Assembly (NCBI RefSeq): GCF_001597725.1
Contig: NZ_LUTR01000028.1
Location: forward strand, 1-40,614
Source: Neptuniibacter marinus
GTDB lineage: Bacteria; Pseudomonadota; Gammaproteobacteria; Pseudomonadales; Balneatricaceae
Reading direction: 5' to 3'
DNA length: 40,614 nucleotides
Shown: piece after piece, positions 7,373 through 40,206 of the stretch
Layout: each line of letters begins with the position of its first letter
Numbering within the stretch: the first letter of the stretch is position 1
Translations under genes and position numbers: made by a program
The notes under the pieces: generated by a model
Databases searched by the model: none
Told to the model about the DNA's origin: nothing
What the model saw: the letters and a program-made list of their open reading frames with translations, nothing else

Positions 7373-7390
7373 TAGTAGGCGGTAGTTTAT

Positions 7391-18786: not shown

Positions 18787-18894
18787 TTAGGTTTGCTTGA
18801 TCTTGATGATGTTATTTATTGATGCATTGTTTTTGTGCGCTAATGCTCTTTGGTGGTGCGATTTTCTGTGGGCATTTTCTAGTGGTGGGTGAGT

Positions 18895-21800
18895 ATGAGT
18901 GCTTCGCAGCGCATTTTAAAAGAGCGGCGACATTACAATAAATGGGTAGCAAACCAAACATTAGAGGACTATGCGCTGCGTTTTACTGCGGTGGGTGGTC
19001 GTCATATGAGTATTTCCAAGGTGGGGATGACAGCTCTTGGTGCTGCTTCGTTTTTGGCTCTCGAAGGTTTAGCGGCGGCGGTTACGCTTAGCTATGGCTT
19101 CACTAATACCATCACGGCCATGTTGGCTGTTTGTTTGGTTCTGTTTGTCACCGGCTTTCCTATTGCTTATTACTGTGCGAAACATGGATTAGATATAGAT
19201 CTACTTACCCGTGGCGCTGGCTTTGGTTATTTGGGGTCGACTATTACCTCGCTGATCTATGCCTCCTTTACCTTTATTTTCTTTGCCATTGAAGCCGCTA
19301 TTCTCGCCTCCGCTTTAAATGTTTTGCTCGGGATTCCGTTATTTATTGGCTATGTTATCTGTGCGGTTGCTGTTATCCCTATTGTGACCCACGGTATTAC
19401 TGCAATCAGTAAATTTCAGGTAGGCACTCAATATATATGGCTGCTCTTACAATGCTCAGCTTTGGCCGTGGTGTTGATCTACGAATACGATAGTTTAAAG
19501 GGTTGGACTGAATTTGTAGCACCGCAAGCGCCCCAAGGAGATAGTTTTAACTTAGTGTTGTTTGGATCTGCTGTATCTATTTTTATTGCCTTAGTTGCGC
19601 AAATAGGTGAACAAGCCGATTACCTACGTTTTATGCCCCCTAAAACCCAAGAAAATCGAAAACAATGGTGGTTTTGGTTAGTGCTCTCTGGCCCTGGTTG
19701 GGTCTGGGTTGGGTTTATAAAAATGTTATTAGGCTCATTTTTAGCTTATTTAGCCTTTACTCAGCTAATGCCATTTGAGCAAGCTACAGATCCTACCTAT
19801 CTCTATCAGCAAGTGTTTCTAACATTGACGGAATCACCGGTTATATCATTGATTCTTGCGGCGGTGATGGTGATTCTGTGTCAAATGAAGATTAATGTGA
19901 CTAATGCATATGCAGGGTCTATCGCCTGGTCAAACTTCTTTTCCCGTTTAACCCATAGTCACCCTGGCCGAGTAGTGTGGTTGGTCTTTAATGTCTCTAT
20001 CGCCTTGCTATTGATGGAGCTGGGTATATACCAAGCCTTAGAAGCGATTTTAGGTACCTTTGCTATCCTTGCGCTGGGCTGGTTGGGGTCACTATCAGCG
20101 GATCTGTTAATTAATAAACCTTTAGGTTTAAGCCCTAAAAATATTGAGTTTAAACGTGCTCACCTATATGACATTAACCCTGTAGGCATCGGCTCTATGC
20201 TGATTTCAACCATATTGGGTATGCTTGCCTACTTGGGCTTGCTAGGGGAGCTGGCTAAGCCTTTATGTCATTTTGTTACTTTGCTCTCCTGCTTTATCTG
20301 TGTGCCGTTGATCGCATGGCTGACCAAGGGACGTTATTACATCGCTAGAGAATCAAGCAATCTGAGCCATTTCTTGAGCAAAGAAAAGCGTATACATCCG
20401 GCAGCATTAACAACATTGACCTGCGGTATTTGTGAGAACAAATTTGAATTGGAGGATATGGCTTATTGCCCCGCTTATGAGCAGCCGATCTGCTCATTAT
20501 GTTGCTCATTGGATGTGCGTTGTTTAGATGGCTGTAAGCCAAAAACAGGTTTTTCACAAAGTGTATTAAAAAATTTATACCGTTATCTTCCCCGTATGGC
20601 AGTACGCTCGATCTACTCTAGATTAGGGCGGTTTATCACTTGGGTGTTTAGTGTGAACCTCGTTTTGGGCGGATTGCTGTTGCTAATCTATATTCAGATG
20701 AAGCCCGCCAATGCCGCGGAAATTTTGTTACTTGAGAAAACCTTTATTTCGTTGTTTATTACGCTGTTTATCGCCTCAGGCGTTGCGACTTGGGTATTTT
20801 TGCTTGCACACGAAAGTAGAGTCACAGCACAAAAAGAGTCTAACCGGCAAAGTTTAAAGCTTACCCGTGAGATCGATGCCCATGAGCAGACGGATAAAGA
20901 GCTACAGCAGGCTAAAGAACATGCTGAGCGAGCAAATGCTGCCAAAAGTCGTTATCTAACAGGTATCAGTCATGAACTTCGTACTCCTTTGCAATCAATT
21001 TTAGGTTATGCGCAGTTACTGGGAGAGAAAGAAAGCATTGCAGACGAACATAAACGCGGCTTAAAGATTATTCATCGTAGTGGGCAGTATTTGACTGATT
21101 TAATTGAAGGTTTACTTGATATATCAAAGATAGAAGCGGGCCGATTGGATCTATACCGTAATCAAGTGAAACTACCTGAACTTATCGATCAATTGGCGCA
21201 AATGTTTGGCGTACAAGCGGAACAAAAGCATCTGAAATTTACCTGCCGAATTAATAATCCTTTACCTGATGTCGTTATTACCGATGAAAAGCGGTTACGA
21301 CAGATCTTAATTAATCTCCTCTCAAATGCGATTAAATACACACCCCAAGGTAATATCGATTTTGAAATAAACTACCGCAACCAAGTAGCAGAATTCTGTA
21401 TCCGTGATACAGGTCCAGGAATAGATGAAGATCACTTGCAGCGTATTTTCGATCCTTTTGAAAGGGTCCGCAATAGAGATACGGCAAGCCTTCCAGGAAC
21501 GGGGTTGGGGTTAACCATTGTAAAATTGTTGGCTGAAATTATGGGCGGAGATCTTCAGGTGGATAGTCAGCTTAACAAAGGCTCTGAATTTAAAGTTAGC
21601 CTATTATTACCTTGGGTTGATAGTGTGCATGAGGATGAGCCTAAATTACGTAAAGCTATGGGCTATGAAGGATTCCAACGCACGATCTGTTTGGTTGATG
21701 ACGATCCGGTTTTACGCGGCTTATTGTCAGACCTGTTAGTTCCGCTGGGGTTTAATACGGTGGAAGCCCATGATGCCTATAGCTGTCTCCAATTGGTTAA

Positions 21801-22365
21801 AGAGGTGAGGCCAGACCTTTTTCTACTGGATATATCTATGCCCGGCATGAGTGGCCTAGAGCTAGCAAGTCAGCTTAGAGAGGAAAGGTATAGAGAGCCG
21901 ATTGTGATGCTTTCGGCCGATGCGCAGGAGTATAATCAACAGGAAGATTATAAGTTGGTTTATGATGATTACTTGGTTAAACCGGTGAGTAACCATCTCT
22001 TGTTGGATAAGCTTGCTCAGCACCTTGATTTAGATTGGGTGTACCGTACTGAAACTTTAAACGTTGTTGTTCCAAGTAGCTTGCAAATTAATTCGGAGGT
22101 TGATGCTGGAACTCCACTTGATAACTTGAAGAATCGGACAGATTTAGCGGCAAGGCCCCCAGTTAAAAATCTTCCTAAGCACAGTCTGTTGTTAGAGCTT
22201 AAAGCCTATGCTGAAATGGGTTATCAAAAAGGTGTTAATAATATATTACAGCAGATTGATGAAGAGGGTATTTTGAACGCTGAAGCATTTGGGCATTTAC
22301 AAGGTTTATCCCAAGCATTTCAATTTGAAAAACTTGCACAACATATCGAGGCATATACGTTATGA
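18895..22365 (+). CDS. NCS1 permease-like hybrid sensor histidine kinase/response regulator
   Basis: This protein of about 1156 residues is a transporter-linked kinase. Residues 40-475 are an NCS1 (purine-cytosine permease) type membrane domain with about 12 helices. A cysteine cluster follows (C512-x2-C515, C527, C535-x2-C538-C539, C545-x3-C549, numbering from GTG 18889), resembling a zinc-binding knuckle. Two further helices (585-605, 620-640) lead through a coiled coil to HisKA with SHELRTP (His695), HATPase (LSNAIKYT, DTGPG, GTGLGL), a receiver domain (Asp981 in LLDISMPGMSG) and a helical tail. The plan parallels CbrA, where an SLC5 transporter is joined to a kinase. A nucleobase, allantoin or urea-related signal is plausible but unproven. 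ATG 18895 is preferred over GTG 18889. It overlaps the next gene by 4 bases. Confidence 0.88.
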   Translation: MSASQRILKERRHYNKWVANQTLEDYALRFTAVGGRHMSISKVGMTALGAASFLALEGLAAAVTLSYGFTNTITAMLAVCLVLFVTGFPIAYYCAKHGLDIDLLTRGAGFGYLGSTITSLIYASFTFIFFAIEAAILASALNVLLGIPLFIGYVICAVAVIPIVTHGITAISKFQVGTQYIWLLLQCSALAVVLIYEYDSLKGWTEFVAPQAPQGDSFNLVLFGSAVSIFIALVAQIGEQADYLRFMPPKTQENRKQWWFWLVLSGPGWVWVGFIKMLLGSFLAYLAFTQLMPFEQATDPTYLYQQVFLTLTESPVISLILAAVMVILCQMKINVTNAYAGSIAWSNFFSRLTHSHPGRVVWLVFNVSIALLLMELGIYQALEAILGTFAILALGWLGSLSADLLINKPLGLSPKNIEFKRAHLYDINPVGIGSMLISTILGMLAYLGLLGELAKPLCHFVTLLSCFICVPLIAWLTKGRYYIARESSNLSHFLSKEKRIHPAALTTLTCGICENKFELEDMAYCPAYEQPICSLCCSLDVRCLDGCKPKTGFSQSVLKNLYRYLPRMAVRSIYSRLGRFITWVFSVNLVLGGLLLLIYIQMKPANAAEILLLEKTFISLFITLFIASGVATWVFLLAHESRVTAQKESNRQSLKLTREIDAHEQTDKELQQAKEHAERANAAKSRYLTGISHELRTPLQSILGYAQLLGEKESIADEHKRGLKIIHRSGQYLTDLIEGLLDISKIEAGRLDLYRNQVKLPELIDQLAQMFGVQAEQKHLKFTCRINNPLPDVVITDEKRLRQILINLLSNAIKYTPQGNIDFEINYRNQVAEFCIRDTGPGIDEDHLQRIFDPFERVRNRDTASLPGTGLGLTIVKLLAEIMGGDLQVDSQLNKGSEFKVSLLLPWVDSVHEDEPKLRKAMGYEGFQRTICLVDDDPVLRGLLSDLLVPLGFNTVEAHDAYSCLQLVKEVRPDLFLLDISMPGMSGLELASQLREERYREPIVMLSADAQEYNQQEDYKLVYDDYLVKPVSNHLLLDKLAQHLDLDWVYRTETLNVVVPSSLQINSEVDAGTPLDNLKNRTDLAARPPVKNLPKHSLLLELKAYAEMGYQKGVNNILQQIDEEGILNAEAFGHLQGLSQAFQFEKLAQHIEAYTL

Positions 22366-23273
22366 ATACCGCTCTAGGGAAAGAGATCGTGCTGGTGGTT
22401 GATGATTCACCTGACGCATTGAGCCTTATTAATGATGCTTTAGAGCACGCGGGTATGGATGTGTTGGTTGCTCTAGAGGGACGCCAAGCACTGACGATCG
22501 CAAAAAGGATACGGCCTGATATTATCTTATTAGATGCGATTATGCCTAATATGGATGGTTTTGAAACCTGCTTAGCGCTTAAAGCGGACCCTTCACTAGC
22601 GTCAATCCCCGTGATTTTTATGACAGGTTTAACAGATACCTGTGATGTTGTTCGAGGGCTAGAGGCGGGAGGTGTTGATTACCTTACAAAACCTATTAAC
22701 CCAAGTGAGTTATTAGCTCGCATGCGGGTTCATTTGGCTAATGCGCGTCAGGCGGTCAGTGTCGAATCAGCACTTGATAGTAGTGGTCAGCACTTAGTAA
22801 CAGTGGATACACAAGGGGTGATGTTATGGGGGACACCGCAAGCCCATGCTCTGTTGGCAAAAGCGGGCATTGGTTCGTTGGGTCAAGCTAAAGCGCTGGT
22901 GCCGCAAATTCAGCGTTGGCTTGAGCAGCCTAAACTTGCTCAAAATCAAACTTTAAAGGTAAAAAACCTTAGTTATCCTTTAGAGCTTAAACTCGTCGCA
23001 TACCAAAACAACAATCAGATATTGGTTAGGCTGATTGATGGAAATCGGCCTACAGGTTCAACGCTGTTAAAAAGTAAGTTATCCATTACGGAAAGAGAAT
23101 CAGAAGTACTGCATTGGATAGCCAATGGTAAAACGAACCGTGAGATTGCTGAAATTCTTGAGATGAGCCCTAGAACAGTGAATAAACATCTTGAGCAGAT
23201 ATTCCCTAAATTAGGGGTAGAGAATAGAACCGCTGCTGCGGGAGTTGCCTTGAGAGTGTTGGCCACTGAATAA
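22362..23273 (+). CDS. Response regulator with LuxR-type DNA-binding domain
   Basis: This 303-residue protein has a receiver domain (phosphoacceptor Asp58 in DIILLDAIMPNMDG; VVDDSP acidic pocket; T in FMTGLTD; K in YLTKPI), a middle segment of about 100 residues without a recognised domain, and a C-terminal LuxR/NarL helix-turn-helix (LSITERESEVLHWIANGKTNREIAEILEMS, about 235-295). It overlaps the kinase gene as ATGA, so the two form one translationally coupled two-component system. Targets are unknown; the tandem repeats at 18739 and the region upstream of urtA are candidates. Confidence 0.9.
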   Translation: MNTALGKEIVLVVDDSPDALSLINDALEHAGMDVLVALEGRQALTIAKRIRPDIILLDAIMPNMDGFETCLALKADPSLASIPVIFMTGLTDTCDVVRGLEAGGVDYLTKPINPSELLARMRVHLANARQAVSVESALDSSGQHLVTVDTQGVMLWGTPQAHALLAKAGIGSLGQAKALVPQIQRWLEQPKLAQNQTLKVKNLSYPLELKLVAYQNNNQILVRLIDGNRPTGSTLLKSKLSITERESEVLHWIANGKTNREIAEILEMSPRTVNKHLEQIFPKLGVENRTAAAGVALRVLATE

Positions 23274-23666: not shown

Positions 23667-24452
23667 ATGCGTTGTTTTAAAAGTGAATTTTATTCTTTTG
23701 CTGCTTTAATTTTGTTCTTATTTATTCCAGCGGCTCAGTCTGCAGAGCAGCAGGTAGAACCAATAACGCTTTATACTGTTAACTACCCTCCTTATTCTAT
23801 CATTCGTTCAGATGGAGCCTTTGAAGGGGTTGATGTGGATGTAGTTCGAGCGGCATTCTTAGCTGTAGGTATCAATATCCATTTTAAAACAGCGCCCTGG
23901 AAACGAATCTTAAAAAATATACAGCATGGCTACATTTTGGCCAGTATAACCTGTTCAAAACGCCCTGATAGGTCAGCGTATATCAAGTATAGCGATCCAA
24001 TAAGTGTTGCTAATCAAGTTGCAGTAATGGCTTCTGCAAGTGACGCTAGCGCATTGGTGAAATTTTCAGACCTTAATAAATTTGAGGTAACGGTTGTTGA
24101 TGGCTGGGGAATTGAAAAGGAGCTGACTGACTCAGGGATAGAACATACGACCACACCGAGCATTAGTAGTGGAATTAATGCCGTTTTAAACCGAGGGGTT
24201 GATGTTTTCTATAACGGGGATGCAGCAACATTATTTGTCGCAAAGAAGTTAGGTGTGCAAGACCAGATAAAAATAAAGCACTTTGTTGATCGAGAAGCGA
24301 CCCTTTTTCACCTCTGCTTCAGTAAAAAAAATCATAATACAGAGTACTTAGTTCATCAGTTTAATAAGGGACTAAAGGTTATTAAAAAAAATGGTACGTA
24401 TCAGGCTATATATGAAAAATACTTGTCATCAAATTTGATCACCAATTATTAA
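23667..24452 (+). CDS. Periplasmic solute-binding protein (SBP_bac_3 type)
   Basis: This 261-residue protein has a signal peptide (cleavage near AAQSA-EQ) and a family 3 solute-binding fold. It begins ITLYTVNYPPYSIIRSDGAFEGVDVDVVRAAF, the usual amino-acid-binding start, and contains ISVANQVAVM and a C-terminal GTYQAIYEKYL. No ABC permease or ATPase follows. Instead a membrane GGDEF-EAL protein starts 6 bases after its stop, so it probably serves as a periplasmic ligand sensor for that enzyme rather than for transport. The ligand is unknown. Confidence 0.85.
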   Translation: MRCFKSEFYSFAALILFLFIPAAQSAEQQVEPITLYTVNYPPYSIIRSDGAFEGVDVDVVRAAFLAVGINIHFKTAPWKRILKNIQHGYILASITCSKRPDRSAYIKYSDPISVANQVAVMASASDASALVKFSDLNKFEVTVVDGWGIEKELTDSGIEHTTTPSISSGINAVLNRGVDVFYNGDAATLFVAKKLGVQDQIKIKHFVDREATLFHLCFSKKNHNTEYLVHQFNKGLKVIKKNGTYQAIYEKYLSSNLITNY

Positions 24453-24458
24453 CAGGGT

Positions 24459-28810: not shown

Positions 28811-28870
28811 TATACGTCAAATGACGTATAGGTGTGCGTCAATCACCTCATACCTGTTCGGACCTATATG
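28811..28870. promoter_or_regulatory. Nested palindromes upstream of urtA
   Basis: TATACGTCA (28811-28819) and TGACGTATA (28822-28830) are perfect 9-bp arms separated by AA. AGGTG and CACCT flank 9 bases just after (28830-28848), and TATAGGT (28827-28833) can pair with ACCTATA (28862-28868). These are likely regulator sites or a structured leader for the urea operon. The binder is unknown. No NtrC consensus site was recognised. Confidence 0.5.
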
Positions 28871-28914: not shown

Positions 28915-28930
28915 CGGTTTGACTGGTGCA
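28915..28930 (+). promoter_or_regulatory. Weak sigma-54-like promoter for urtA
   Basis: CGGTTTGACTGGTGCA keeps GG (28916-28917) and GC (28928-28929) at the right spacing but matches the rest of the consensus poorly. The predicted start near 28941 would leave a 20-base leader. Urea transporter operons are often NtrC/sigma-54 controlled, which makes it worth noting, but the score is low. Confidence 0.3.
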
Positions 28931-28960
28931 GCTAATTTTATAATCAGGGGAAGGGCAGGT

Positions 28961-30241
28961 ATGAAACTTAAAAGTATTGCGGCAGGGGTTGCACTTTCAA
29001 TAGGTGCTTCAGTGATCAGTATTAGCGCTATCGCGGCTGAAACGATCAAAGTAGGTGTATTACATTCGCTATCAGGCACTATGGCTATTAGTGAAACAAC
29101 ACTGAAAGACACTGTCCTAATGATGGTTGAAGAGCAAAACAAAAAGGGTGGTTTGTTAGGAAAACAGCTAGAAGCCGTTGTTGTTGACCCTGCCTCTAAT
29201 TGGCCTCTATTTGCAGAAAAAACACGTGAACTACTAACAAAAGAAGAAGTAGATGTAATCTTCGGTTGCTGGACATCTGTATCACGTAAATCTGCACTAC
29301 CTGTGTTAGAAGAGCTAAACGGACTGATGTTCTATCCTGTTCAGTATGAAGGTGAAGAGTCATCTAAAAATGTATTTTATACAGGTGCAGCGCCAAACCA
29401 GCAGGCTATTCCTGCGGTTGATTACTTAGCAAATGACCTTGGTGTTGAACGTTGGGTTCTAGCAGGTACCGACTATGTTTATCCACGTACAACCAATAAG
29501 ATTCTTGAAGCTTACCTTAAAGCTAAAGGCGTAGCGGCTGAAGATATCATGATTAACTACACGCCTTTTGGTCATTCTGATTGGCAGTCAATTGTATCGG
29601 ATATCAAAAAGTTTGGTGGTGAAGGTAAGAAAACAGCCGTGGTTTCTACGATCAACGGTGATGCAAACGTCCCTTTCTATAAAGAGCTAGGTAACCAAGG
29701 TATCTCTTCTGAAGATATTCCTGTCGTGGCTTTCTCCGTAGGTGAGGAAGAGCTTTCAGGTCTAGATACTACACCGCTTGTGGGTCATCTAGCTGCTTGG
29801 AACTATTTCCAGAGTGTTGAAAATGATGCGAACGCTGCATTTATTAAACAGTGGAAAGCGTTTACAAGTGAAGAACGTGTAACTAACGACCCAATGGAAG
29901 CAACCTATATAGGTTTCAACATGTGGGCTAACGCGGTTACTAAAGCGGGCACAACAGATGTTGACGCAGTAGAGCAGGCGATGATCGGTCAGGAAACCCC
30001 TAACCTTACCGGTGGTATGGCTGTAATGAACAAAAATCACCACTTGAGCAAACCGGTTCTGATCGGTGAAATTCAGGATGATGGTCAGCTTGAAGTTGTT
30101 TGGGAAACTGATGGTGTTGTTGCCGGTGATGCATGGTCTGATTTCCTACCAGGTTCTAAAGACCTGATCTCTGATTGGACTAGCCCTATTAAGTGCGGTA
30201 ACTACAACACCGTAACTAAAGAGTGTTCTGGTTCTAAATAA
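28961..30241 (+). CDS. urtA: Urea ABC transporter substrate-binding protein
   Basis: This 426-residue periplasmic binding protein has a signal peptide (MKLKSIAAGVALSIGASV to ISAIAA) and starts ETIKVGVLHSLSGTMAISE, followed by VIFGCWTSVSRKSALPVLEE, both diagnostic for UrtA. It binds urea for delivery to UrtBC. The ATG at 28961, with GGAAGG 7 bases upstream, is used rather than a TTG at 28919 because the signal peptide starts there. It leads the urtABCDE-ure cluster and is separated from urtB by 219 bases with a stem-loop, which would let urtA be made in excess. Confidence 0.95.
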   Translation: MKLKSIAAGVALSIGASVISISAIAAETIKVGVLHSLSGTMAISETTLKDTVLMMVEEQNKKGGLLGKQLEAVVVDPASNWPLFAEKTRELLTKEEVDVIFGCWTSVSRKSALPVLEELNGLMFYPVQYEGEESSKNVFYTGAAPNQQAIPAVDYLANDLGVERWVLAGTDYVYPRTTNKILEAYLKAKGVAAEDIMINYTPFGHSDWQSIVSDIKKFGGEGKKTAVVSTINGDANVPFYKELGNQGISSEDIPVVAFSVGEEELSGLDTTPLVGHLAAWNYFQSVENDANAAFIKQWKAFTSEERVTNDPMEATYIGFNMWANAVTKAGTTDVDAVEQAMIGQETPNLTGGMAVMNKNHHLSKPVLIGEIQDDGQLEVVWETDGVVAGDAWSDFLPGSKDLISDWTSPIKCGNYNTVTKECSGSK

Positions 30242-30460: not shown

Positions 30461-32143
30461 GTGAGACGTCTGTTTGCCACCCTGTGCTGCTATGTTGCTG
30501 CGTCCCTAACATCGGTTTATGCAAATGAGCCAATAGAGGTCGATGCTGATCCCGCAACTGTCGCGGCAGTTTCCTCCCCCCCACTTTCAGCAACAATGGT
30601 AGAAACTGAAGAGCCAGTTTCTGTTGCTGGGCTTTTAATAAATTTAACAGAGGTCAAGCTAAGTAAAGCGCTGCCTGTACTTAAGCAACTAGAAATACTA
30701 GGCGGCTTAGATATGCTGCCGATGTTTAAAGGCATGCTAGAAGGTGATTTGTATTTTGTTAAAGCCAGTAAAGAGGTGGTCATCATCTCTACGGTTGATG
30801 GTGAATTAACAGCGCAAGGTGTTTTAAGCAAAAAGCAGTTGGCCGATGTAAGTAAGAGCCAGCTCAAAAAAATTCGTGTAAACAACAAGCTTCGTGGTTT
30901 TTTAAAGCAAGCTATCGCACGTTTACATATCTCTCATCCTGATTCTGATAAGCGCTTAGCAGCGGTGCAAACCCTGTTAACACATCTGTCAGATGACACT
31001 ATCGCTACCTTAATCGCTGCCCGTGTAAATGAAGCGGATGAAGATGTTCAGGCTATGATTGATTTGGCACTGGCCTTATATCAAGCAGATTCAAAAGACC
31101 CCGCTGAACGCCTTATTGCCGTAAATATTATGGCCGATAGTCTTGAAGGTGATGCAAGAAATAAACTCGTAAAACTTGCTGAAAATGATACAGATACACA
31201 AGTTAAAGTAGCCGCAGCCAAAGCACTAAAACAGATTAATGAGAAGATAGAGTTTTATGGTTTTATTGATCAGCTCTTCTTTGGTTTAAGTTTAGGTTCG
31301 GTTCTTCTATTAGCTGCAATTGGTTTAGCGATCACCTTTGGTGTTATGGGTGTTATCAATATGGCCCATGGTGAGATGATCATGTTGGGTGCCTACACGA
31401 CTTATGTTGTGCAGTTAATGATGCCAAATGCGATTGAATATTCACTATGGGTTGCGATACCCCTTGCGTTTGTTGTGTCTGGTTGTGTCGGTATTCTGAT
31501 TGAACGTGGTGTTATTCGTCATTTACATGGTCGCCCATTGGAAACTTTACTCGCGACCTTTGGTATTAGCTTAATTTTACAGCAGCTAGTCCGTACTGTT
31601 TTTTCTCCCCTCAACCGTCAAGTGGCATCACCGGAATGGATGAGTGGTTCATTAGAAATTAACCCTATTTTGAGCTTAACCTTGAACCGCTTATATATTT
31701 TGGCCTTTGCGCTTTTGGTTTTTGGTTTATTGCTGATTATCTTACGTAAAACCTCCTTAGGACTTAATGTACGGGCAGTGTCCCAGAACCGTGATATGGC
31801 AAAAGCCATGGGTATTCGTACCGATTGGGTCGATGCTATGACTTTTGGCTTAGGTTCAGGTATAGCCGGTATCGCCGGTGTTGCTTTAAGTCAGTTGACC
31901 AATGTTGGTCCTAACTTAGGACAAGCCTACATTATCGATTCGTTTATGGTCGTTGTATTTGGCGGGGTGGGTAACTTGTGGGGCACCCTTGTCGCTGCGT
32001 TCTCGTTAGGGATAGCGAACAAGTTCTTAGAGCCGGTTACCGGTGCAGTGCTTGCGAGTATTTTTGTACTTATCTTTATTATTCTCTTTATCCAAAAACG
32101 TCCTAAGGGCTTATTCCCCCAGAAAGGGAGGGCTGCAGAATGA
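30461..32143 (+). CDS. urtB: Urea ABC transporter permease UrtB
   Basis: This 560-residue inner-membrane permease of the branched-chain amino acid type has a signal peptide, an N-terminal periplasmic helical-repeat region of about 240 residues (HEAT-like, as known in UrtB) and then about eight membrane helices from LFFGLSLGSVLLLAAIGLAI onward. The ABC-contact loop is near NVRAVSQNRDMAKAMGI. It begins with GTG at 30461 after AGGAG, and its stop overlaps the urtC start as ATGA. It forms the urea channel with UrtC. Confidence 0.93.
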   Translation: MRRLFATLCCYVAASLTSVYANEPIEVDADPATVAAVSSPPLSATMVETEEPVSVAGLLINLTEVKLSKALPVLKQLEILGGLDMLPMFKGMLEGDLYFVKASKEVVIISTVDGELTAQGVLSKKQLADVSKSQLKKIRVNNKLRGFLKQAIARLHISHPDSDKRLAAVQTLLTHLSDDTIATLIAARVNEADEDVQAMIDLALALYQADSKDPAERLIAVNIMADSLEGDARNKLVKLAENDTDTQVKVAAAKALKQINEKIEFYGFIDQLFFGLSLGSVLLLAAIGLAITFGVMGVINMAHGEMIMLGAYTTYVVQLMMPNAIEYSLWVAIPLAFVVSGCVGILIERGVIRHLHGRPLETLLATFGISLILQQLVRTVFSPLNRQVASPEWMSGSLEINPILSLTLNRLYILAFALLVFGLLLIILRKTSLGLNVRAVSQNRDMAKAMGIRTDWVDAMTFGLGSGIAGIAGVALSQLTNVGPNLGQAYIIDSFMVVVFGGVGNLWGTLVAAFSLGIANKFLEPVTGAVLASIFVLIFIILFIQKRPKGLFPQKGRAAE

Positions 32144-33318
32144 ACCAGTTAATGCGTTTTAGCCGTTTACATGGTGACAGTAAAGTTGCGCCATTTGTCG
32201 CGATCTTAGTTATTTTAACGTTGTTAGCGTCTATGGGTAATCTATTGATGCCTGAAGACTCAGCGTTTTATGTCAGCACCTATACCATCACTTTATTAGG
32301 TAAATACCTATGTTATGCCATGTTGGCCTTAGCGGTTGATGTGATTTGGGGTTACTGCGGAATATTAAGTTTAGGCCATGGGGCATTCTTTGCTTTAGGT
32401 GGTTACGCTATGGGTATGTACCTTATGCGCCAGATCGGTGATCGCGGTGTTTATGGTAATCCAGAGCTGCCTGACTTTATGGTCTTCCTTAACTGGACTG
32501 AGCTGCCTTGGTTCTGGCAGGGGATGGATCAGTTCTGGTTTGCGATGCTGATGGTCTTGCTTGTCCCTGGTATTTTAGCCTTTGTCTTTGGTTGGTTAGC
32601 ATTTCGTTCCCGTGTAACGGGTGTTTATCTATCCATTATGACCCAAGCTTTAACTTATGCGTTATTGCTTGCCTTCTTCCGTAATGAGATGGGTTTTGGG
32701 GGTAATAATGGCTTAACCGACTTTAAAGATATTTTAGGCTTTGATCTGCAAGCAGATACAACCCGTGTCACGCTTTTCGCCATAACTGCGCTGCTCTTAG
32801 CTGTGATCTTAGTGGTGAGCCACAAAATTCTACAATCCCGTATGGGTAAAGTAATTGTTGCCATTCGTGATGGTGAGAGTCGAGCACGTTTTATTGGTTA
32901 CCGTACCGAGCGTTTTAAAGTCTGGTTGTTCGTTTACTCTGCATTGATTGCGGGTATTGCCGGTGCGCTGTATGTACCTCAAGTGGGGATTATCAACCCC
33001 GGTGAGTTCTCTCCACTTAACTCAATTGAGATGGTGATCTGGGTTGCTGTTGGTGGTCGTGGCACATTGATTGGTGCCATTGTTGGTGCGCTGCTTGTCA
33101 ACTTTGCGAAAACTAAATTTACCGCCATTATGCCTGATGGTTGGTTGTTTGCTTTAGGTGCGCTGTTTGTCTTTGTCACCCTTTATCTACCTCAAGGGTT
33201 AATGGGTCTATACCAAAAGATGGTCAACAAGCGCCGTTCTGGTGGTGGCGATAATGATGCTAGGCCAGCAGATGATAAGGTGGATACCGCACCTGCAATT
33301 AAAGGGGGTGATGCATGA
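32140..33318 (+). CDS. urtC: Urea ABC transporter permease UrtC
   Basis: This 392-residue LivM-type permease has about nine membrane helices. Diagnostic stretches are WGYCGILSLGHGAFFALGGYAMGMYLM, FGGNNGLTDF and the coupling-helix region VIVAIRDGESRARFIGY. The C-terminal 30 residues are polar. The ATGA overlap with urtB upstream and with urtD downstream shows translational coupling. Confidence 0.94.
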   Translation: MNQLMRFSRLHGDSKVAPFVAILVILTLLASMGNLLMPEDSAFYVSTYTITLLGKYLCYAMLALAVDVIWGYCGILSLGHGAFFALGGYAMGMYLMRQIGDRGVYGNPELPDFMVFLNWTELPWFWQGMDQFWFAMLMVLLVPGILAFVFGWLAFRSRVTGVYLSIMTQALTYALLLAFFRNEMGFGGNNGLTDFKDILGFDLQADTTRVTLFAITALLLAVILVVSHKILQSRMGKVIVAIRDGESRARFIGYRTERFKVWLFVYSALIAGIAGALYVPQVGIINPGEFSPLNSIEMVIWVAVGGRGTLIGAIVGALLVNFAKTKFTAIMPDGWLFALGALFVFVTLYLPQGLMGLYQKMVNKRRSGGGDNDARPADDKVDTAPAIKGGDA

Positions 33319-34148
33319 GTCCATTAACTGATGTACGCGAAATAATGCGTAGAGACCAAGTGTGGTCATTTTTAAAAGATGAGCAAAAGCCGGTTGATGT
33401 TTCCCATGACGTTATTCTTTACGTTGAAGGGCTTAATCTGAGCTTTGATGGTTTTAAAGCACTAAATGATCTGAACCTCTATGTAAATGATGGTGAGTTA
33501 CGCTGCTTAATTGGTGCCAACGGTGCGGGTAAAACAACCTTGATGGATGTGATTACCGGTAAGACAACACCCGATTCCGGCAGTGTTTATTTTGGCCAGA
33601 GCATTAACCTTTTACAGCATGATGAGGCCGATATTGCACAGTTGGGTATAGGACGTAAGTTCCAAAAGCCAACCGTGTTTGAGGCCCATAGCGTATTTGA
33701 TAACTTAGAGTTATCGCTCAAACAGCAAAAATCAGTTATCCCTATGTTATTTGCTCGATTAACACCAACGGAAATTGATCGTATTGATGAAGTACTCAAT
33801 GTGATTGGTTTAAAAGAGCAATGCTTTATGCAAGCAGGGGCTTTATCGCACGGCCAGAAGCAATGGTTAGAGATCGGTATGTTACTGGTTGCTGAGCCTC
33901 GATTGTTATTAATTGATGAACCTGTAGCAGGTATGACAGCCCAAGAGACAGAACGGACCGCCGAGTTACTTACCTCATTAGCGGGTGAGCGTACCGTGAT
34001 TGTGGTAGAGCATGATATGGAATTTGTGCGCAGTATCGCCCGTACTGTAACTGTGCTGCATCAAGGCTCTGTACTAGCAGAAGGTACGATGGATCAAGTT
34101 CAAAATAACCCTGATGTTATTGAAGTTTATCTGGGAGAAGCACCATGA
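33315..34148 (+). CDS. urtD: Urea ABC transporter ATP-binding protein UrtD
   Basis: This 277-residue ATPase of the LivG type has Walker A GANGAGKT, signature LSHGQKQWLEIGMLL, Walker B LLLIDEPVAGMT and the switch histidine in VVEHDMEF. The N-terminal 40 residues precede the nucleotide-binding fold. It overlaps its neighbours by 4 bases on both sides. Confidence 0.94.
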   Translation: MSPLTDVREIMRRDQVWSFLKDEQKPVDVSHDVILYVEGLNLSFDGFKALNDLNLYVNDGELRCLIGANGAGKTTLMDVITGKTTPDSGSVYFGQSINLLQHDEADIAQLGIGRKFQKPTVFEAHSVFDNLELSLKQQKSVIPMLFARLTPTEIDRIDEVLNVIGLKEQCFMQAGALSHGQKQWLEIGMLLVAEPRLLLIDEPVAGMTAQETERTAELLTSLAGERTVIVVEHDMEFVRSIARTVTVLHQGSVLAEGTMDQVQNNPDVIEVYLGEAP

Positions 34149-34840
34149 TAGAGATCTCAAAAGTTAATCAACGTTATGGTGGAACTCAAATCCTTTGGGA
34201 TTTGGATTTGGATATTAAACCAGGCTCCTGTACCTGTATTATGGGACGTAATGGGGTGGGTAAAACGACGCTGTTAAAATGCCTTATGGGTTTGCTGCCG
34301 GTCGAGAACGGTGAAATTCTACTTGAAGGTGAGCCTCTGCATACAAAACCCGCTCAGTTTAGAGCGCCGGCAGGTATAGGTTATGTGCCTCAAGGTCGAG
34401 ATATTTTCCCAACCTTAACAGTGGAAGAGAATCTTAGAATTGGCTTACCTATACGTAAAGATAAAGCGAAACAAATACCGGAGAAGATCTTTGAACTCTT
34501 TCCTGTATTAAAGGAGATGCTTCATCGCCGCGGTGGTGATCTATCAGGGGGCCAGCAACAGCAGTTGGCGATAGGTCGTGCCTTAGTGATTGAACCTAAA
34601 GTGTTGATCTTGGATGAACCTAATGAAGGTATTCAGCCTAATATTGTGCAACAGATAGGTGATGTTATCCTCAAACTTAATCAGGAAGAGGGGCTAACCG
34701 TTATCTTAGTCGAGCAAAAGTTAGGATTTGCACGTAGAGTAGGCAAAGAGTTTCGCTTAATGGAAAAAGGCCGTGTGGTTGCCAGTGACCAGATGGCCAA
34801 CTTAAGTGAGGAACTGATAAAACAGTACCTTGCTGTATAA
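34145..34840 (+). CDS. urtE: Urea ABC transporter ATP-binding protein UrtE
   Basis: This 231-residue ATPase of the LivF type has Walker A GRNGVGKT, signature LSGGQQQQLAIGRAL, Walker B VLILDEPNEGIQPN and the switch region VILVEQKLGF. It completes the urea ABC transporter with UrtA-D. The urease operon starts 36 bases after its stop with no terminator between, so urt and ure genes are probably read through. Confidence 0.95.
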   Translation: MIEISKVNQRYGGTQILWDLDLDIKPGSCTCIMGRNGVGKTTLLKCLMGLLPVENGEILLEGEPLHTKPAQFRAPAGIGYVPQGRDIFPTLTVEENLRIGLPIRKDKAKQIPEKIFELFPVLKEMLHRRGGDLSGGQQQQLAIGRALVIEPKVLILDEPNEGIQPNIVQQIGDVILKLNQEEGLTVILVEQKLGFARRVGKEFRLMEKGRVVASDQMANLSEELIKQYLAV

Positions 34841-34876: not shown

Positions 34877-35797
34877 ATGAATAATTGGGTAAACCCTATA
34901 ACAGAACGATTACCTAACACAGGTAAAGAGTCAAAGTGGGAAGCCGAACTTAGCCTTGGGTTAAGCAAAACCACCCGCGGGTCAGTTCTTAAAACCTGTG
35001 CTCATAAAGGCCCACTTTATGTGCAGAAGGCGTTTTATCCAGAAGGTAGAGATCTTGCTCATCTTTACCTTCTTCATCCGCCCGGCGGTATGGTGTCGGG
35101 TGATGATCTACGTATCAATGTAGATATGTCACCTAATGCCCATGGGCTTATCACTACTCCCGGTGCGGGGCGGGTTTATAAAGCCCGTGCTGATAAAACA
35201 CTGCAAACTCAGCATATTCAATTGCGTTTAGCATCCGGCAGTAGCTTAGAATGGTTACCTTTAGAAAATATCATCTACCCCGGCGCACATACTCAGTTGC
35301 ATACAGATATTCATCTTGCTGAAAATAGTCGCTTTATTGGTTGGGAGATTAGCTGTTTTGGTCTAAAAGCCAGCCAGCAACCCTTTAACCATGGCCAATT
35401 AGCACAGCGTTTGCAGATCTTCCAAGCGGGACGTTTAAAAGTACGCGAAGCCTTATCACTTAATCCAGAACAGCATCATTTTATGCATAGCCGTGCAGGT
35501 TTAGCGAACCGATCGGTAAATGCCTTGCTCATTGCAGGCCCGTTTTCAGGTGAGAATCAAGTCGATGAGCTACTTAGCGCTTTGCAGACGCAATGTACTG
35601 AATTAACAAAGGTAAAAGCGGCGAATAACCCACCGCCTGCACTGGCTGCGGTTAGCTTGAACGGCGAATTTATGCAGATAAGGTATTTAGGTGATTGCTC
35701 GGAACAGGCTCGCTTATTGTTTACTCGTTGCTGGCGTTTATTACGACCTGCGTTGATCGAACGGGAGGCGTGCGAACCAAGAATTTGGGCAACCTAA
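34877..35797 (+). CDS. ureD: Urease accessory protein UreD (UreH)
   Basis: This 306-residue urease accessory protein is recognised by YVQKAFYPEGRDLAHLYLLHPPGGMVSGDDL, LITTPGAGRVYKARAD, and LEWLPLENIIYPGA. UreD binds the urease apoprotein and, with UreF and UreG, delivers nickel and CO2 for lysine carbamylation. The ATG at 34877 has only a weak ribosome site. It is the first gene of the ure part of the cluster. Confidence 0.94.
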   Translation: MNNWVNPITERLPNTGKESKWEAELSLGLSKTTRGSVLKTCAHKGPLYVQKAFYPEGRDLAHLYLLHPPGGMVSGDDLRINVDMSPNAHGLITTPGAGRVYKARADKTLQTQHIQLRLASGSSLEWLPLENIIYPGAHTQLHTDIHLAENSRFIGWEISCFGLKASQQPFNHGQLAQRLQIFQAGRLKVREALSLNPEQHHFMHSRAGLANRSVNALLIAGPFSGENQVDELLSALQTQCTELTKVKAANNPPPALAAVSLNGEFMQIRYLGDCSEQARLLFTRCWRLLRPALIEREACEPRIWAT

Positions 35798-35873
35798 AAG
35801 CCCGCTATAAAACATAACAATGAATTGTAATGAAGCATCCAAATTTAATTACACCTGGCCAAAGAGGTGAGTA

Positions 35874-36176
35874 ATGGAACTGTTACCAAGAGAGAAAGAT
35901 AAGTTGCTGGTGTTTACGGCAGCATTACTGGCAGAGCGACGCCTTAACCGTGGCTTGAAACTGAACTACCCCGAAGCGATGGCCTATATCAGTATGGAAA
36001 TAATAGAGGGCGCACGTGATGGAAAAACAGTTGCGGAATTGATGAGCTACGGTAAAAGCCTTTTAACAGCTGAGCAGGTGATGGACGGGGTACCGGAATT
36101 GATCCACGAAGTACAAGTGGAAGCGACATTTCCCGACGGCACTAAATTAGTCACCGTTCATAACCCAATTAACTAA
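35874..36176 (+). CDS. ureA: Urease subunit gamma
   Basis: This 100-residue urease gamma subunit has the standard length and sequence ([20 protein letters not shown], then [18 protein letters not shown], and [18 protein letters not shown]). GAGGTGAGTA before the ATG is a good ribosome site. It is encoded separately from the beta subunit, unlike the fused gamma-beta subunit of Helicobacter. Confidence 0.96.
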
Positions 36177-36204
36177 ATGTTGATGGCGCGAAGAGGATAG
36201 AACC

Positions 36205-38256
36205 ATGATTCCAGGCGAGATTCAGGCAGCAGAGGGAAGCATAGCGCTTAATGCTGGCCGTAAAACGCAAACCATCCGAGTTGAAAACAGTGGCGACCGT
36301 CCAGTACAGGTAGGCTCTCACTATCACTTTTTTGAGGTTAACCCCGCATTAGAATTTGATCGTGAAGCGACGAAAGGTTATCGCCTGAACATAGCGTCGG
36401 GTACTGCGGTAAGGTTTGAGCCGGGCCAAGGCCGTGAAGTTGAATTGGTTGAGTATGCGGGCAGCAAAACGATCTATGGATTCCGCGGCGATGTAATGGG
36501 AGCGCTTGAGCTCGACGAGTCATCTTCAGGCGCCTCATCAAAAACCTCATCAAAAACAATGGATCGCACTAGTTATGCGCAGATGTTTGGTCCAACAACC
36601 GGGGATAAGGTTCGTTTAGGTAATACAGATCTCTGGATTCAGGTTGAGAAAGACTTCACCACCTATGGCGACGAAGTAAAGTTTGGTGGTGGTAAAGTGA
36701 TTCGTGATGGCATGGGACAAAGCCAGCTTACCAACGATATCGCCATGGATCTGGTTATTACCAATGCACTCATACTTGATCATTGGGGTGTAGTTAAAGC
36801 GGATGTGGGCATTAAAGAGGGGCGCATTGCCAAAGTAGGCAAAGCGGGGAACCCGGATATACAAGATAATGTGGATATAGTGATCGGTCCCGGAACCGAA
36901 ATTATCGCAGGGGAGGGTTCTATCCTTACCGCGGGTGGTATCGATGCGCATATTCACTTTATCTGCCCTCAGCAGATCGATGAAGCCTTGATGTCGGGTG
37001 TAACTACGATGATTGGCGGTGGTACAGGGCCAGCAACCGGCACTAATGCAACAACCTGTACACCCGGCCCGTGGAATATTGGAAAAATGCTACAAGCAAC
37101 CGACAATATGCCGATGAACTTAGGCTTTTTAGGTAAAGGGAATGCAAGTTTACCTGAGGCTTTAGAAGAGCAACTTGAGGCCGGTGTTTGTGGTTTAAAA
37201 CTACATGAAGACTGGGGAACGACCCCAGCGTCAATAGATAACTGTTTAACCGTTGCTGATAAGTACGATGTACAAGTAGCGATTCATACCGATACGCTGA
37301 ATGAATCGGGGTTTGTTGATGACACTATAGGTGCGTTTAAAGGCCGTGTTATCCATACCTACCACACAGAAGGAGCGGGCGGTGGCCATGCGCCTGATAT
37401 TATTCGGGCCTGTTCCTATCCTAATGTGATGCCATCATCCACTAACCCTACACGTCCGTTTACGGTAAATACGGTGGATGAGCATTTGGATATGTTGATG
37501 GTTTGTCATCATCTAGATAGCAATATCCCTGAAGATGTGGCCTTTGCCGATTCCCGTATTCGTAAAGAAACCATAGCCGCCGAAGATATCTTCCACGACC
37601 GAGGTGCCTTCAGCATGATCTCCTCCGACTCCCAAGCGATGGGACGTGTTGGTGAAGTGATCACCCGTACTTGGCAAACAGCCCATAAAATGAAAACGCA
37701 GTTTGGCTTATTGGCAGAAGATCTAGCCGGAGGTACTGATAATTTTAGAGCCAAACGTTATATCGCTAAATACACGATTAACCCGGCTATTACCCACGGT
37801 ATTTCGCATGAAGTCGGTTCTATCGAACCGGGCAAGTTGGCGGATTTAGTGTTGTGGAAACCGGCGTTCTTTGGTGTAAAACCCTCCATGATTATTAAAG
37901 GCGGTATGATTGCCGCCGCGCCGATGGGGGATCCAAATGCTTCAATTCCGACTCCACAACCTGTGCACTATCGTCCTATGTTTGGTTCTTGTGGTTCAGC
38001 ACCCGCTAAAACCAGCGTAACTTTCGTCAGTCAGGCCGCTTTAGATAATAATATTGCCGAGAGCTTAGGCTTGCAGCGTCGTTTATCTGCCTGCGCGAAC
38101 ACACGAAATATCAGCAAATCCGATATGGTACTCAATGACTGGATGCCTGATATTACGGTTGATCCACAAACCTATGAAGTCCGCGCAGATGGTGAAATGC
38201 TAACCTGTGAACCGGCAGAAGAGCTGCCTTTAGCACAGCTATATACCCTGTTTTAA
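36205..38256 (+). CDS. ureBC: Urease beta-alpha fusion (UreB-UreC in one ORF)
   Basis: This 683-residue ORF begins as UreB ([31 protein letters not shown]; residues 1-103), passes through a serine-rich linker (about 104-118, containing SSKTSSKT) and continues as full UreC from M119 ([21 protein letters not shown]) to [10 protein letters not shown]. UreC active-site residues are all present and lie exactly 115 positions beyond Klebsiella numbering: nickel ligands H249, H251, carbamylated K332, H361, H387 and D475, and catalytic flap H435. No stop codon separates the two parts. The Met119 codon lacks a ribosome site, so a single fused polypeptide is expected. It hydrolyses urea to ammonia and carbamate in the cytoplasm with UreA. 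Confidence 0.93.
36534..36557 (+). repeat. Perfect 12-bp tandem duplication in the UreB-UreC linker
   Basis: CTCATCAAAAAC occurs twice in direct succession, encoding SSKT-SSKT, immediately before the codon that normally starts UreC (36559). The copies are identical, suggesting recent slippage or expansion of a flexible linker at the fusion joint. Confidence 0.85.
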
Positions 38257-38300
38257 GGTTGTTTTATAAGCGCGAGATTTAATAAAGAGTGAGACGTTAG

Positions 38301-38744
38301 ATGTTAGAAGTTTATGAACGTTTAGGCACACACTGCCATCATCAAGCGGATAGCCGTGTAGTGCTAACCCATGAGCAGCGTGATCGAGGCCGCCTTAAAT
38401 TGATCAGTGATCAAGGTGAAGAGGTGCGTGTTTTTCTTGAGCGCGGCAAACCTTTGCTGGTGGGCGAATATCTAAAAACCACCTGCGGACGTTACATCAA
38501 AGTGGCGGGCGCTGTTGAATCGGTTGCCTTAGCCTCAGGTGATGATTGGCACCAATTTTCCCGTGCTTGTTACCACTTAGGGAATCGTCATACAAAAATA
38601 GAGGTGGGTGAGCGTTGGTTAAGAATTAAGCCCGATCATGTACTAGAGGAGATGCTAGTACAGTTAGGTTTAGTCGTTACGCATGAAGAAGCGATCTTTG
38701 TTCCTGAATCTGGAGCTTATAGTCATGGTCACTCCCATCACTAA
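38301..38744 (+). CDS. ureE: Urease accessory nickel chaperone UreE
   Basis: This 147-residue metallochaperone has an N-terminal peptide-binding domain and a C-terminal metal-binding domain (FSRACYHLGNRHTKIEV, with the conserved nickel-binding histidine). It ends in a short histidine-bearing tail (SHGHSHH). UreE carries nickel to UreG. The histidine tail is much shorter than in Klebsiella UreE. The ribosome site is weak. The last 20 bases overlap ureF. Confidence 0.93.
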   Translation: MLEVYERLGTHCHHQADSRVVLTHEQRDRGRLKLISDQGEEVRVFLERGKPLLVGEYLKTTCGRYIKVAGAVESVALASGDDWHQFSRACYHLGNRHTKIEVGERWLRIKPDHVLEEMLVQLGLVVTHEEAIFVPESGAYSHGHSHH

Positions 38745-39495
38745 GGCGACGATGCTGCAGCCAGAGCCTATGACGCCAACGACTAAGTCTGTTGAGGACG
38801 CAGAGGCCATTTTAACGAATGATCGTGCCCTGTTCCGTTTAATGCAGCTTAGTAGTGCGAGTTTACCTGTGGGGGGATACTCCTTTTCTCAAGGTTTGGA
38901 GTACGCCATTGATTGCGGTTGGCTTGGTAAACAGGTGGATGTCCATGAATGGTTGGAGATGCAGTTATTGCATGCGGTCGCCCAAGTAGATCTCCCAGCA
39001 CTTAGATTATTGATGGATGCAGCAAACCGCAAAGATTGGGACGAGGTTAAACGCTTAAATGATCTGGTATTAGCTTGCCGCGAAAGCAAAGAACTTAGGC
39101 TAACCGATACCGCAATGGGCGAAGCCTTAGTTCGCTTACTCAATAGCTTAAATATAGAGCAGCCTTTTGCCCATGGCCGAGGCAGCATTCCTGAAGAGGT
39201 TAGCTTTATAACGCTATTTGCTATCGCCGCCGCCCATTGGAAGATCAACTACGCCAGTGCAGCCTTAGGTTTTGCATGGTCTTGGTTAGAAAACCAAGTG
39301 GCAGCGGCCACTAAGCTAGTACCACTAGGGCAGACCCAAGCACAGATCTTATTAGGTGATCTGCAACCTATACTAAGCCGCGCCTTAAAAATAGCTGCGC
39401 CAATAGAAGAAGAACAGATCGGCGCTGGCTTACCCGCATTAGCTATCGCGAGTGCCTTACATGAACAACAATATTCACGGTTATTTCGTTCTTAA
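38725..39495 (+). CDS. ureF: Urease accessory protein UreF
   Basis: This 256-residue all-helical accessory protein has the conserved core LFRLMQLSSASLPVGGYSFSQGLEYAID and ends EQQYSRLFRS, typical for UreF. It bridges UreD and UreG in the urease activation complex. The ATG at 38725 is chosen because GGAG lies 9 bases upstream; an in-frame ATG at 38683 would overlap ureE more deeply. The first 35 residues before the conserved core are poorly conserved. Confidence 0.92.
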   Translation: MVTPITKATMLQPEPMTPTTKSVEDAEAILTNDRALFRLMQLSSASLPVGGYSFSQGLEYAIDCGWLGKQVDVHEWLEMQLLHAVAQVDLPALRLLMDAANRKDWDEVKRLNDLVLACRESKELRLTDTAMGEALVRLLNSLNIEQPFAHGRGSIPEEVSFITLFAIAAAHWKINYASAALGFAWSWLENQVAAATKLVPLGQTQAQILLGDLQPILSRALKIAAPIEEEQIGAGLPALAIASALHEQQYSRLFRS

Positions 39496-39558
39496 TATTT
39501 ATACAAACAGAAAATAACTGCGGAATAACGACAGAATGACAACAGAGGTAAACAATAG

Positions 39559-40206
39559 ATGAGTAAACCAAAGCAAACACTACGAGTTGGCGTAGGTGGC
39601 CCCGTCGGATCCGGCAAGACGGCACTGTTGAGATCACTCTGTGCCGCTATGAAAGATCATTATGATATAGCGGTCGTCACTAATGATATTTACACCCAAG
39701 AAGATGCTAAGTTTCTCACCGAACATGAAGCGCTTAGTGCAGACAGAATTATCGGTGTAGAAACGGGCGGTTGTCCCCATACTGCTATACGTGAAGATGC
39801 CTCAATGAACCTCGCCGCAATCGACCAGCTAATCGAACGTCATGGGGATCTAGATGTCGTCTTTGTCGAAAGCGGTGGTGATAACCTAAGCGCTACCTTT
39901 AGTCCTGAACTGTCGGACCTTACTATCTATGTGATTGATGTATCAGCAGGTGATAAAATCCCACGTAAAGGTGGGCCGGGTATTACCAAATCGGATCTAC
40001 TTATTATCAATAAAATCGACTTAGCTCCTCTTGTTGGTGCATCTCTTGAAGTGATGGATACCGATGCAAAGCGAATGCGTGGTGACCGTCCATTTGTATT
40101 TGCTAATCTAAAACAAGCGAAAGGTTTAGATGATATTATCCAATTTATTATTAGCGAAGGCATGCTAACGGCTAAAACTTTACCACCTGCCGTTGCTGTT
40201 GTTTAA
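39559..40206 (+). CDS. ureG: Urease accessory GTPase UreG
   Basis: This 215-residue SIMIBI-class GTPase drives nickel insertion into urease. It has P-loop [10 protein letters not shown], the metal-binding [17 protein letters not shown] (Cys-Pro-His), [16 protein letters not shown] and the guanine-specificity motif NKID. GAGGT lies 9 bases before the ATG. It is followed 37 bases later by a small HupE/UreJ-like gene. Confidence 0.96.

Follow-up and report, generated by a model that had tools for sequence, protein, structure and literature searches.

What does a sensor kinase that carries an entire permease at its head respond to, and which genes does it govern? The question is raised by a 40,614-nucleotide stretch of Neptuniibacter marinus (contig NZ_LUTR01000028.1; "the window" hereafter means this whole stretch), where a hybrid histidine kinase with a permease-like head and a LuxR-type response regulator are encoded about 6 kb upstream of genes for urea uptake and urease. 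With a probability that we put at roughly three in four, the pair is a two-component system which controls the uptake, and in some hosts the hydrolysis, of urea or short-chain amides. A first-pass annotation made from the letters alone had connected the kinase with nitrogen compounds and pointed to the urea genes downstream; a tie to nitrogen genes, above all those for urea uptake, is upheld below by the linkage of the genes and by a promoter site that they have in common.

Linkage of the kinase to urea and amide genes

Of 244 genomes of the order, 65 gave a match to the N-half of the kinase, spread over 33 of the 113 genera; in one of these genomes the match is a fragment only. The genome collection contributed at least 79 loci. 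Across these 79 loci, with flanks of up to 8 kb, 52 contain urt, urease, formamidase or amidase genes, so that association with nitrogen genes is frequent. For 66 kinase genes in 64 genomes, an UrtA gene was located within 1 kb in 25, within 5 kb in 37 and within 20 kb in at least 54, the last being a lower bound since the UrtA cut-off of 1e-80 missed a second UrtA beside the kinase in G207, G011, G232 and G192. The fragment in G039 (this genome then being counted among the 180 others) and the permease-only matches of G043 and G155 were left out of this distance count. UrtA is present in 61 of the 64 kinase genomes versus 60 of the 180 others. A divergent UrtA, about 40% identical to that of the window, occurs in 30 of the 64 and is the UrtA that adjoins the kinase in 28 of these 30; in those inspected it heads urtABCDE together with formamidase and/or aliphatic amidase. 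The Paracoccus kinase adjoins formamidase, AmiS/UreI and FmdB, with no urt gene in the stretch seen, Methylovirgula has the kinase near urease and urt genes at one place and near formamidase and amidase at another, and in the Klebsiella plasmid loci L113 and L119 it adjoins urtABCDE and formamidase. A preprint on the Klebsiella urt-formamidase cluster names UrtABC and AmiF, and the terms "histidine kinase" and "response regulator" occur zero times in its accessible text (PMC13060141).

The N-half was also matched in 531 plasmid records (342 from Klebsiella and 78 from Sinorhizobium), a few of which represent kinase-free permeases. A relative of the regulator is present in 75 of the 79 loci, and one Neptuniibacter sp. 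locus (L031) encodes an N-half 99% identical to that of the window. In a quick tree, 51 kinase heads group in a single clade (SH-aLRT 98) to which none of 12 kinase-free permeases belongs, which is consistent with a single permease-kinase fusion. A chance fusion or an assembly error was also considered and rejected, as most matches in the 65 genomes cover the N-half completely and lie in open frames of more than 1,100 codons. Some members are unusual: the Paracoccus kinase (L115, 9920-12541), at about 873 aa, falls short of the usual 1,100-1,200, and the response regulator that comes after it is a longer one, and the two basal kinases of G398 (L161, 7023-10838; L162, 6852-10520) have no matching regulator or urea genes in the fetched stretch and perhaps another target.

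A palindrome shared by the promoters

The word TACG-N8-CGTA was found in 33 of 41 spacers between the kinase and the divergent urtA, versus at most 8 for any such word in five shuffles; the 41 spacers are those that remain after identical last 80 bases were counted once, and some are still close relatives. The full site, TACGTCA-N2-TGACGTA, is present with up to four mismatches in 37 of the 41, and a score matrix was built from those 37, the window not included. By this matrix the window has one strong site (28813-28828), a perfect copy scoring 27.2 with the next best at 7.1. The likely urtA ATG (28961) follows some 130-150 bases further on, and the site is the sole perfect copy in the 3.45-Mb genome, where the next best have two mismatches. 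The 1.17 Mb of loci outside the matrix contain 23 sites with a score of at least 16, versus none in two Markov draws, and for 21 of the 23 the projected UrtA start follows 56-145 bases downstream. These loci are not a fully independent test, whereas the window's own site is independent. A second, weaker copy of the palindrome is found 22 bases on (two helix turns) in L047 (12778) and L094 (14029), and is very weak in the window (28831-28854).

As a control, up to 700 bases before UrtA were taken from 118 genomes. None of the 60 urtA promoters of kinase-free genomes reaches a score of 14 (best 6.6), and the site is present in 16 of the 29 genomes with the kinase and one UrtA. Where the kinase is accompanied by a second UrtA, the canonical UrtA has the site in only 1 of 29 genomes, namely G029, in which the kinase adjoins that gene (G192 is classed in this group, its second UrtA gene having been borne out). 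The site also precedes urtA in G193, although kinase and urtA there lie on two separate long contigs; G238 is alike, with the contig ends nearer. The exact site was found in 22 of the 244 genomes (the reversed pattern in 3), and 18 of the 22 bear the kinase: in 14 of these the site precedes urtA or falls within the kinase/urtA spacer, and in four (G090, G160, G192 and G232) it lies 100-138 bases before fmdA. All told, the exact palindrome stands 85-138 bases before fmdA in five genomes (L330 4037, L331 5702, L332 8951, L333 12592 and L337 2888), and fmdA is probably part of the regulon, judging by this placement.

Could the palindrome belong to some other nitrogen regulator and merely travel with the cluster? 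Several nitrogen regulators act on urt operons, binding of the site by the regulator encoded here is something that we infer, and exact copies occur without a detected kinase 85 bases before fmdA in G203 and inside a urt-urease cluster in G087. These two genomes keep the site's tie to urea and amide genes and weaken a strict tie to the kinase. Such travelling would nevertheless leave unexplained why the site is missing from all 60 promoters of kinase-free genomes, and from the canonical urtA promoters in 28 of the 29 genomes where a second UrtA exists, and why it is found in kinase/urtA spacers; moreover, such a palindrome would suit a dimer of the LuxR type, with a parallel in the ACTU motif of CrbR (PMC5715377). 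We consider another regulator improbable.

The permease head and its substrate site

The Pfam model Transp_cyt_pur gave no match to the whole protein at E<=1, to the head at E<=10 or to any of 26 family members at E<=1. Single-sequence PDB searches with the head yielded nothing useful, and a profile of residues 1-666 run against PDB sequences retrieved only a CRIPT chain (E 0.15), a kind of sequence search that can miss a STAC domain. Because these searches found nothing useful, profile-profile and fold comparisons were needed. Aligned by hhalign to 14 PF02133 proteins, the head gave a probability of 98.9 and an E of 2.9e-17 over 410 columns, and with a Pantoea intermediate, which itself passes PF02133, 99.7% and 2.8e-25. 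The best PDB matches of the predicted model were CodB and Mhp1, pointing to a LeuT-type fold nearest to the NCS1 structures. The head is a divergent branch of NCS1 (TC 2.A.39) and not a canonical member, the Pfam model being a recogniser of the family and not its defining feature. The first-pass annotation was therefore right to call the head an NCS1-type permease, even though the Transp_cyt_pur search that it suggested does not find it. Runs of invariant residues in the head, seen in a 26-row alignment of homologues 49-80% identical, indicate conservation above what a membrane anchor would need.

Residues of Mhp1 were mapped through an Mhp1 alignment and a joint alignment, which gave no confident position for W220 and G219. 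W117, Q121 and N318 of Mhp1, which we take to be the substrate site, correspond to F131, E135 and G343 in the window head, and S312 and T313, presumably of the Na2 site, to K334 and I335; N314 is kept as N336. Among 8 kinases and 9 kinase-free permeases the mapped residues do not vary, except that L once takes the place of F at the W117 position. Loss of the NCS1 substrate residues had been named at the outset as a finding that would count against a sensing head; the residues have indeed changed, but they have changed alike in kinases and kinase-free permeases, which suggests another ligand and not a dead site. The lysine at the Na2 position would argue for independence from sodium, and proton-coupled NCS1 members exist (PMC13390362).

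The ligand first proposed was a nucleobase, allantoin or a related compound. On such an account the head would sense a nucleobase, hydantoin or allantoin, and the urea genes would be switched on because urea is a breakdown product of purines and allantoin. The fold does come nearest to a cytosine (CodB) and a hydantoin (Mhp1) transporter, and some of the kinase-free relatives carry the name cytosine or allantoin permease. Those names, however, are annotation only, the Mhp1 substrate residues are replaced as described, and the genome of the window has no PF02133 match at E<=0.001. In the regions read, no purine, pyrimidine or allantoin genes are annotated beside the kinases or the permeases of the branch. 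We regard a ligand of this kind as very improbable.

The cysteine knuckle and the added helices

Behind the head lie eight cysteines (512, 515, 527, 535, 538, 539, 545 and 549; C-x2-C-x11-C-x7-C-x2-CC-x5-C-x3-C), a cluster that had already been noticed in the first pass. All eight are invariant in the 26-row alignment, and all 176 kinase matches, among which some genomes are represented more than once, have exactly this spacing. The zinc-ribbon search proposed as a check gave only a sub-threshold Pfam match to Cript, a CRIPT-like zinc ribbon (20.5-22.1 bits versus a cut-off of 25.5). The same eight cysteines are present in the kinase-free permeases L160 and L206 (the latter, at 6941-8590, from Methylovirgula), four remain in those of Acinetobacter, Klebsiella and Moraxella and five in two from Streptomyces, and the knuckle is nearly gone in Tsukamurella (two cysteines) and in three Arthrobacter proteins (one each). 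Because it is present, reduced or nearly lost in proteins that have no kinase, we read the knuckle as an old tail of the permease branch. As a candidate for a relay specific to the kinase it was rejected, kinase-free permeases having the same knuckle. The idea that the signal passes through a metal site is weakened on the same grounds, though the strict retention of the cysteines in the kinases says that the knuckle matters there.

A related account would make the head a membrane anchor, or the seat of some other input, and have the knuckle report metal (Zn or Ni) or redox state to the kinase, so that urea uptake would follow nickel supply or nitrogen status. Urease requires nickel, and the unvarying cysteine spacing would suit such a sensor. 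Yet the knuckle also occurs in kinase-free permeases, the head is conserved beyond the needs of an anchor, and some linked clusters have formamidase or amidase with no urease in the stretch seen. A metal or redox input therefore appears unlikely to us.

The two extra helices predicted earlier after the knuckle were seen in the structural model, where the second (609-665) continues toward the HisKA (DHp) helix.

Kinase-free permeases of the same branch

The kinase-free permeases are about 39-50% identical to the window head, share its core motifs and fall outside the kinase clade. They are annotated as cytosine or allantoin permease or as hypothetical, and three of them matched no NCBIfam model at 1e-4. 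Twelve records or genomes with such a permease were checked, and urease, formamidase or amidase was near in seven and in none of the other five. The permease of Acinetobacter NEB149 heads ureEFGJDABC, and that of Klebsiella pneumoniae is directly 3' of ureG. In Moraxella osloensis the permease adjoins fmdA-fmdB, in Tsukamurella it is near fmdB-fmdA, in Methylovirgula it stands between the kinase-regulator genes and amidase, and in Arthrobacter U41 it precedes an aliphatic amidase. In genome G523 (L160), the response regulator and kinase genes are divergent from permease-FmdA-(131 aa)-AmiE, and the permease occupies the place held by urtABCDE in other clusters. By its position, the permease at the end or the head of the Klebsiella and Acinetobacter urease operons (L202 5956-7563; L114 9950-11557) is a candidate urea permease. 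We lean, with somewhat better than even confidence, to a fuller statement: that there is an unrecognised NCS1 branch of urea and short-amide permeases with a C-terminal knuckle, one of which was fused once to a kinase and became a dedicated urea/amide receptor controlling urt and formamidase operons through TACGTCA-N2-TGACGTA.

Whether the head would signal by flux or by binding is a separate matter. As a true transceptor it would be a working transporter whose flux the kinase reads, instead of a transport-dead receptor that reports binding; this is a variant of the urea and amide reading and does not count against it. Core residues (K334 and E135) are the same in the 8 kinases and 9 kinase-free permeases, and the SLC5 counterpart CbrA transports histidine (PMC7918813). 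Conversely, at the positions matching I41/Q42 of Mhp1 the kinases have S/F where the kinase-free permeases have A/Y, which hints that the function has changed, and the ammonium counterpart Ks-Amt5 has lost transport (PMC5764959). We treat a working transporter as a tentative possibility that falls short of even odds.

Organisation of the window

Features of the window are collected in Table 1. The first-pass annotation used ATG 18895 as the kinase start, which is the likelier one, the consensus of the 26-row alignment starting there. Its histidine kinase with a receiver and its LuxR-type regulator were likewise confirmed by the open reading frames (ORFs) and Pfam: the kinase has HisKA, HATPase_c and a receiver, its partner a receiver and GerE, phospho-acceptor residues are present, and the two ORFs share a 4-base overlap. 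No PAS family was found by Pfam at E<=1 before the DHp domain, where the second added helix ends at 665 and HisKA begins at 685. In an NCBIfam scan of the kinase, the best 25 matches were to kinase models, all under their cut-offs. About 108 residues of the regulator between the receiver and the helix-turn-helix (HTH) domain (22755-23078) match no Pfam family at E 0.01.

Table 1. Coordinates of the kinase-regulator pair, the promoter palindrome and the urea genes in the window.
Feature	Position	Strand	Remarks
Hybrid histidine kinase	18889..22365	+	ORF of 1158 aa from GTG; probable start ATG 18895
NCS1-like permease head	18949..20343	+	residues 21-485
Eight-cysteine knuckle	20422..20535	+	residues 512-549; putative metal binding
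Two further helices	20620..20883	+	residues 578-604 and 609-665; model and hydropathy
HisKA (DHp) domain	20941..21141	+	residues 685-751, Pfam; SHELRTP motif, His695
HATPase_c domain	21280..21606	+	residues 798-906, Pfam
C-terminal receiver of kinase	21685..22014	+	Response_reg, residues 933-1042, Pfam; Asp981
Response regulator, Response_reg + GerE (LuxR HTH)	22362..23273	+	303 aa, Pfam; receiver Asp58
Palindrome TACGTCAAATGACGTA	28813..28828	.	proposed regulator binding site in urtA promoter; only perfect copy in genome
urtA (urea ABC binding protein)	28919..30241	+	TIGR03407, 570 bits, over cut-off; likely start ATG 28961
urtB	30461..32143	+	TIGR03409, over cut-off
urtC	32140..33318	+	TIGR03408, over cut-off
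urtD	33315..34148	+	TIGR03411, over cut-off
urtE	34145..34840	+	TIGR03410, over cut-off
Urease genes ureD, ureA, ureBC (fused), ureE, ureF, ureG	34877..40206	+	

The urea genes do lie where they had been announced, about 6 kb downstream, the regulator ending at 23273 and the urtA ORF starting at 28919, followed by urtBCDE-ureDA-ureBC-ureEFG. Between the regulator and urtA (23667-26879) are a family-3 solute-binding protein, a relative of which occurs in only 3 of the 79 related loci, and a GGDEF/EAL-like protein, the latter identified by eye. In the ureBC gene (36205-38256) urease beta and alpha are joined in a single reading frame (Urease_beta 3-99, Urease_alpha 118-234, amidohydrolase). One match spans the two parts in G246 (690-codon frame) and G006 (one stop counted inside) as well, and in seven other members of the genus beta and alpha gave matches of their own. 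A HupE/UreJ-type membrane protein is encoded on the minus strand (144-1385), at the end of the window far from the urease genes.

Function of the kinase-regulator pair

Several observations weigh against a pair dedicated to urea and amides. No urt, urease, formamidase or amidase gene was found in 27 of the 79 loci in the stretch examined, several stretches being short; the Tistrella kinase has no urea or amide genes within 10 kb, nor have the two kinases of G398 and those of G193 and G044 in the surrounding stretch, G193 having the site before its distant urtA. Two Streptomyces and two Arthrobacter plasmid permeases have no urease, formamidase or amidase nearby, and in Acinetobacter baumannii (L209) an adjacent permease and kinase have no match to the urease, formamidase or amidase queries in 17.6 kb. 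The Mhp1-type substrate and Na2 residues are not conserved in the head. At three mismatches the palindrome is not enriched in the genome (88 versus 149 for the reversed pattern), 13 of the 29 kinase genomes with one UrtA have no strong site within 700 bases, and the site is nearer the kinase within the same spacer in G055 and G058. A kinase was not detected in four of the 22 genomes that have the exact site (G203, G087, G016 and G119), and in the stretch seen no urea or amide gene was found near the sites of G016 and G119. Three of the matrix spacers (L055, L102 and L103) carry the canonical kind of urtA, as in the test loci. No sigma-70-like promoter was recognised near the site when the urtA promoter was scanned. 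Finally, many of the genomes are related, so the counts are not independent and the formal p of 3.8e-10 is too small.

We nevertheless favour control of urea and amide uptake, and propose the following course of events. The permease core would bind, and may carry, urea or a short amide such as formamide or acetamide, and would change conformation on doing so. The two added helices would pass this change to the DHp helix, and phosphate would move from His695 to a receiver aspartate, Asp981 of the hybrid and/or Asp58 of the regulator. Once phosphorylated, the LuxR-type regulator would bind TACGTCA-N2-TGACGTA at 28813-28828 and turn on urtABCDE, perhaps with the urease genes behind; in other genomes formamidase would be activated through the same site.

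The family supplies kinase, regulator, DNA site and target operons as one experimentally approachable set. If the proposal is true, a further transporter family would join the transporter-headed kinases, of which SLC5 and Amt heads have been described, and would help in asking how a kinase derives its signal from a transport cycle. In some genomes the sensor head would be a homologue of the transporter that it adjoins, and the naming of the permease group in urease and formamidase operons would be corrected.

Comparison with known systems

In the literature searched, which covers few subscription journals and took in NCS1-kinases, sensor kinases linked to urea or formamidase genes, NCS1 urea transporters, regulators of urtA and transceptors, we found no account of this protein, and no sensor dedicated to urea or amides that acts upstream of urt operons; in the accessible text of PMC13209695, "histidine kinase" and "response regulator" occur zero times.

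The NCS1 transporters CodB, Mhp1, PucI and MetT resemble the head in fold (CodB and Mhp1) and by distant sequence kinship to PF02133. Unlike them, the head has Lys-Ile for the Na2 Ser/Thr, has its substrate Trp, Gln and Asn replaced, continues into a C-terminal knuckle and a kinase, and is missed by the Pfam model. The kinase-free permeases of urease and formamidase operons are alike in branch and core motifs, two of them with the eight-cysteine knuckle, and differ in having no kinase.

The SLC5-STAC kinases (CbrA, CrbS/MxtR, PrlS and, reportedly, RpuS) are alike in that a histidine kinase is joined to a complete LeuT-fold transporter (PMC7918813, PMC13022988), and CrbS and PrlS are likewise hybrids with a LuxR-type partner (PMC7918813, PMC5715377). 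CrbR acts via an imperfect palindrome in its target promoters, the nearest parallel to the DNA site described here (PMC5715377). In contrast to these kinases, the window kinase has an NCS1-like head, no PAS by Pfam, no STAC match found, and a knuckle with two extra helices, and its kind is linked to urea and amide genes instead of histidine, acetate or pyruvate genes. Ks-Amt5 is alike in that the transporter domain for a nitrogen compound is reused as the sensor of a histidine kinase, but its domain is Amt, its 679 residues comprise Amt, DHp and CA only, and its compound is another one (PMC5764959). The window pair would work like CbrA, CrbS and Ks-Amt5 but is to be filed with neither type, having a head that appears to come from another family and a knuckle of its own.

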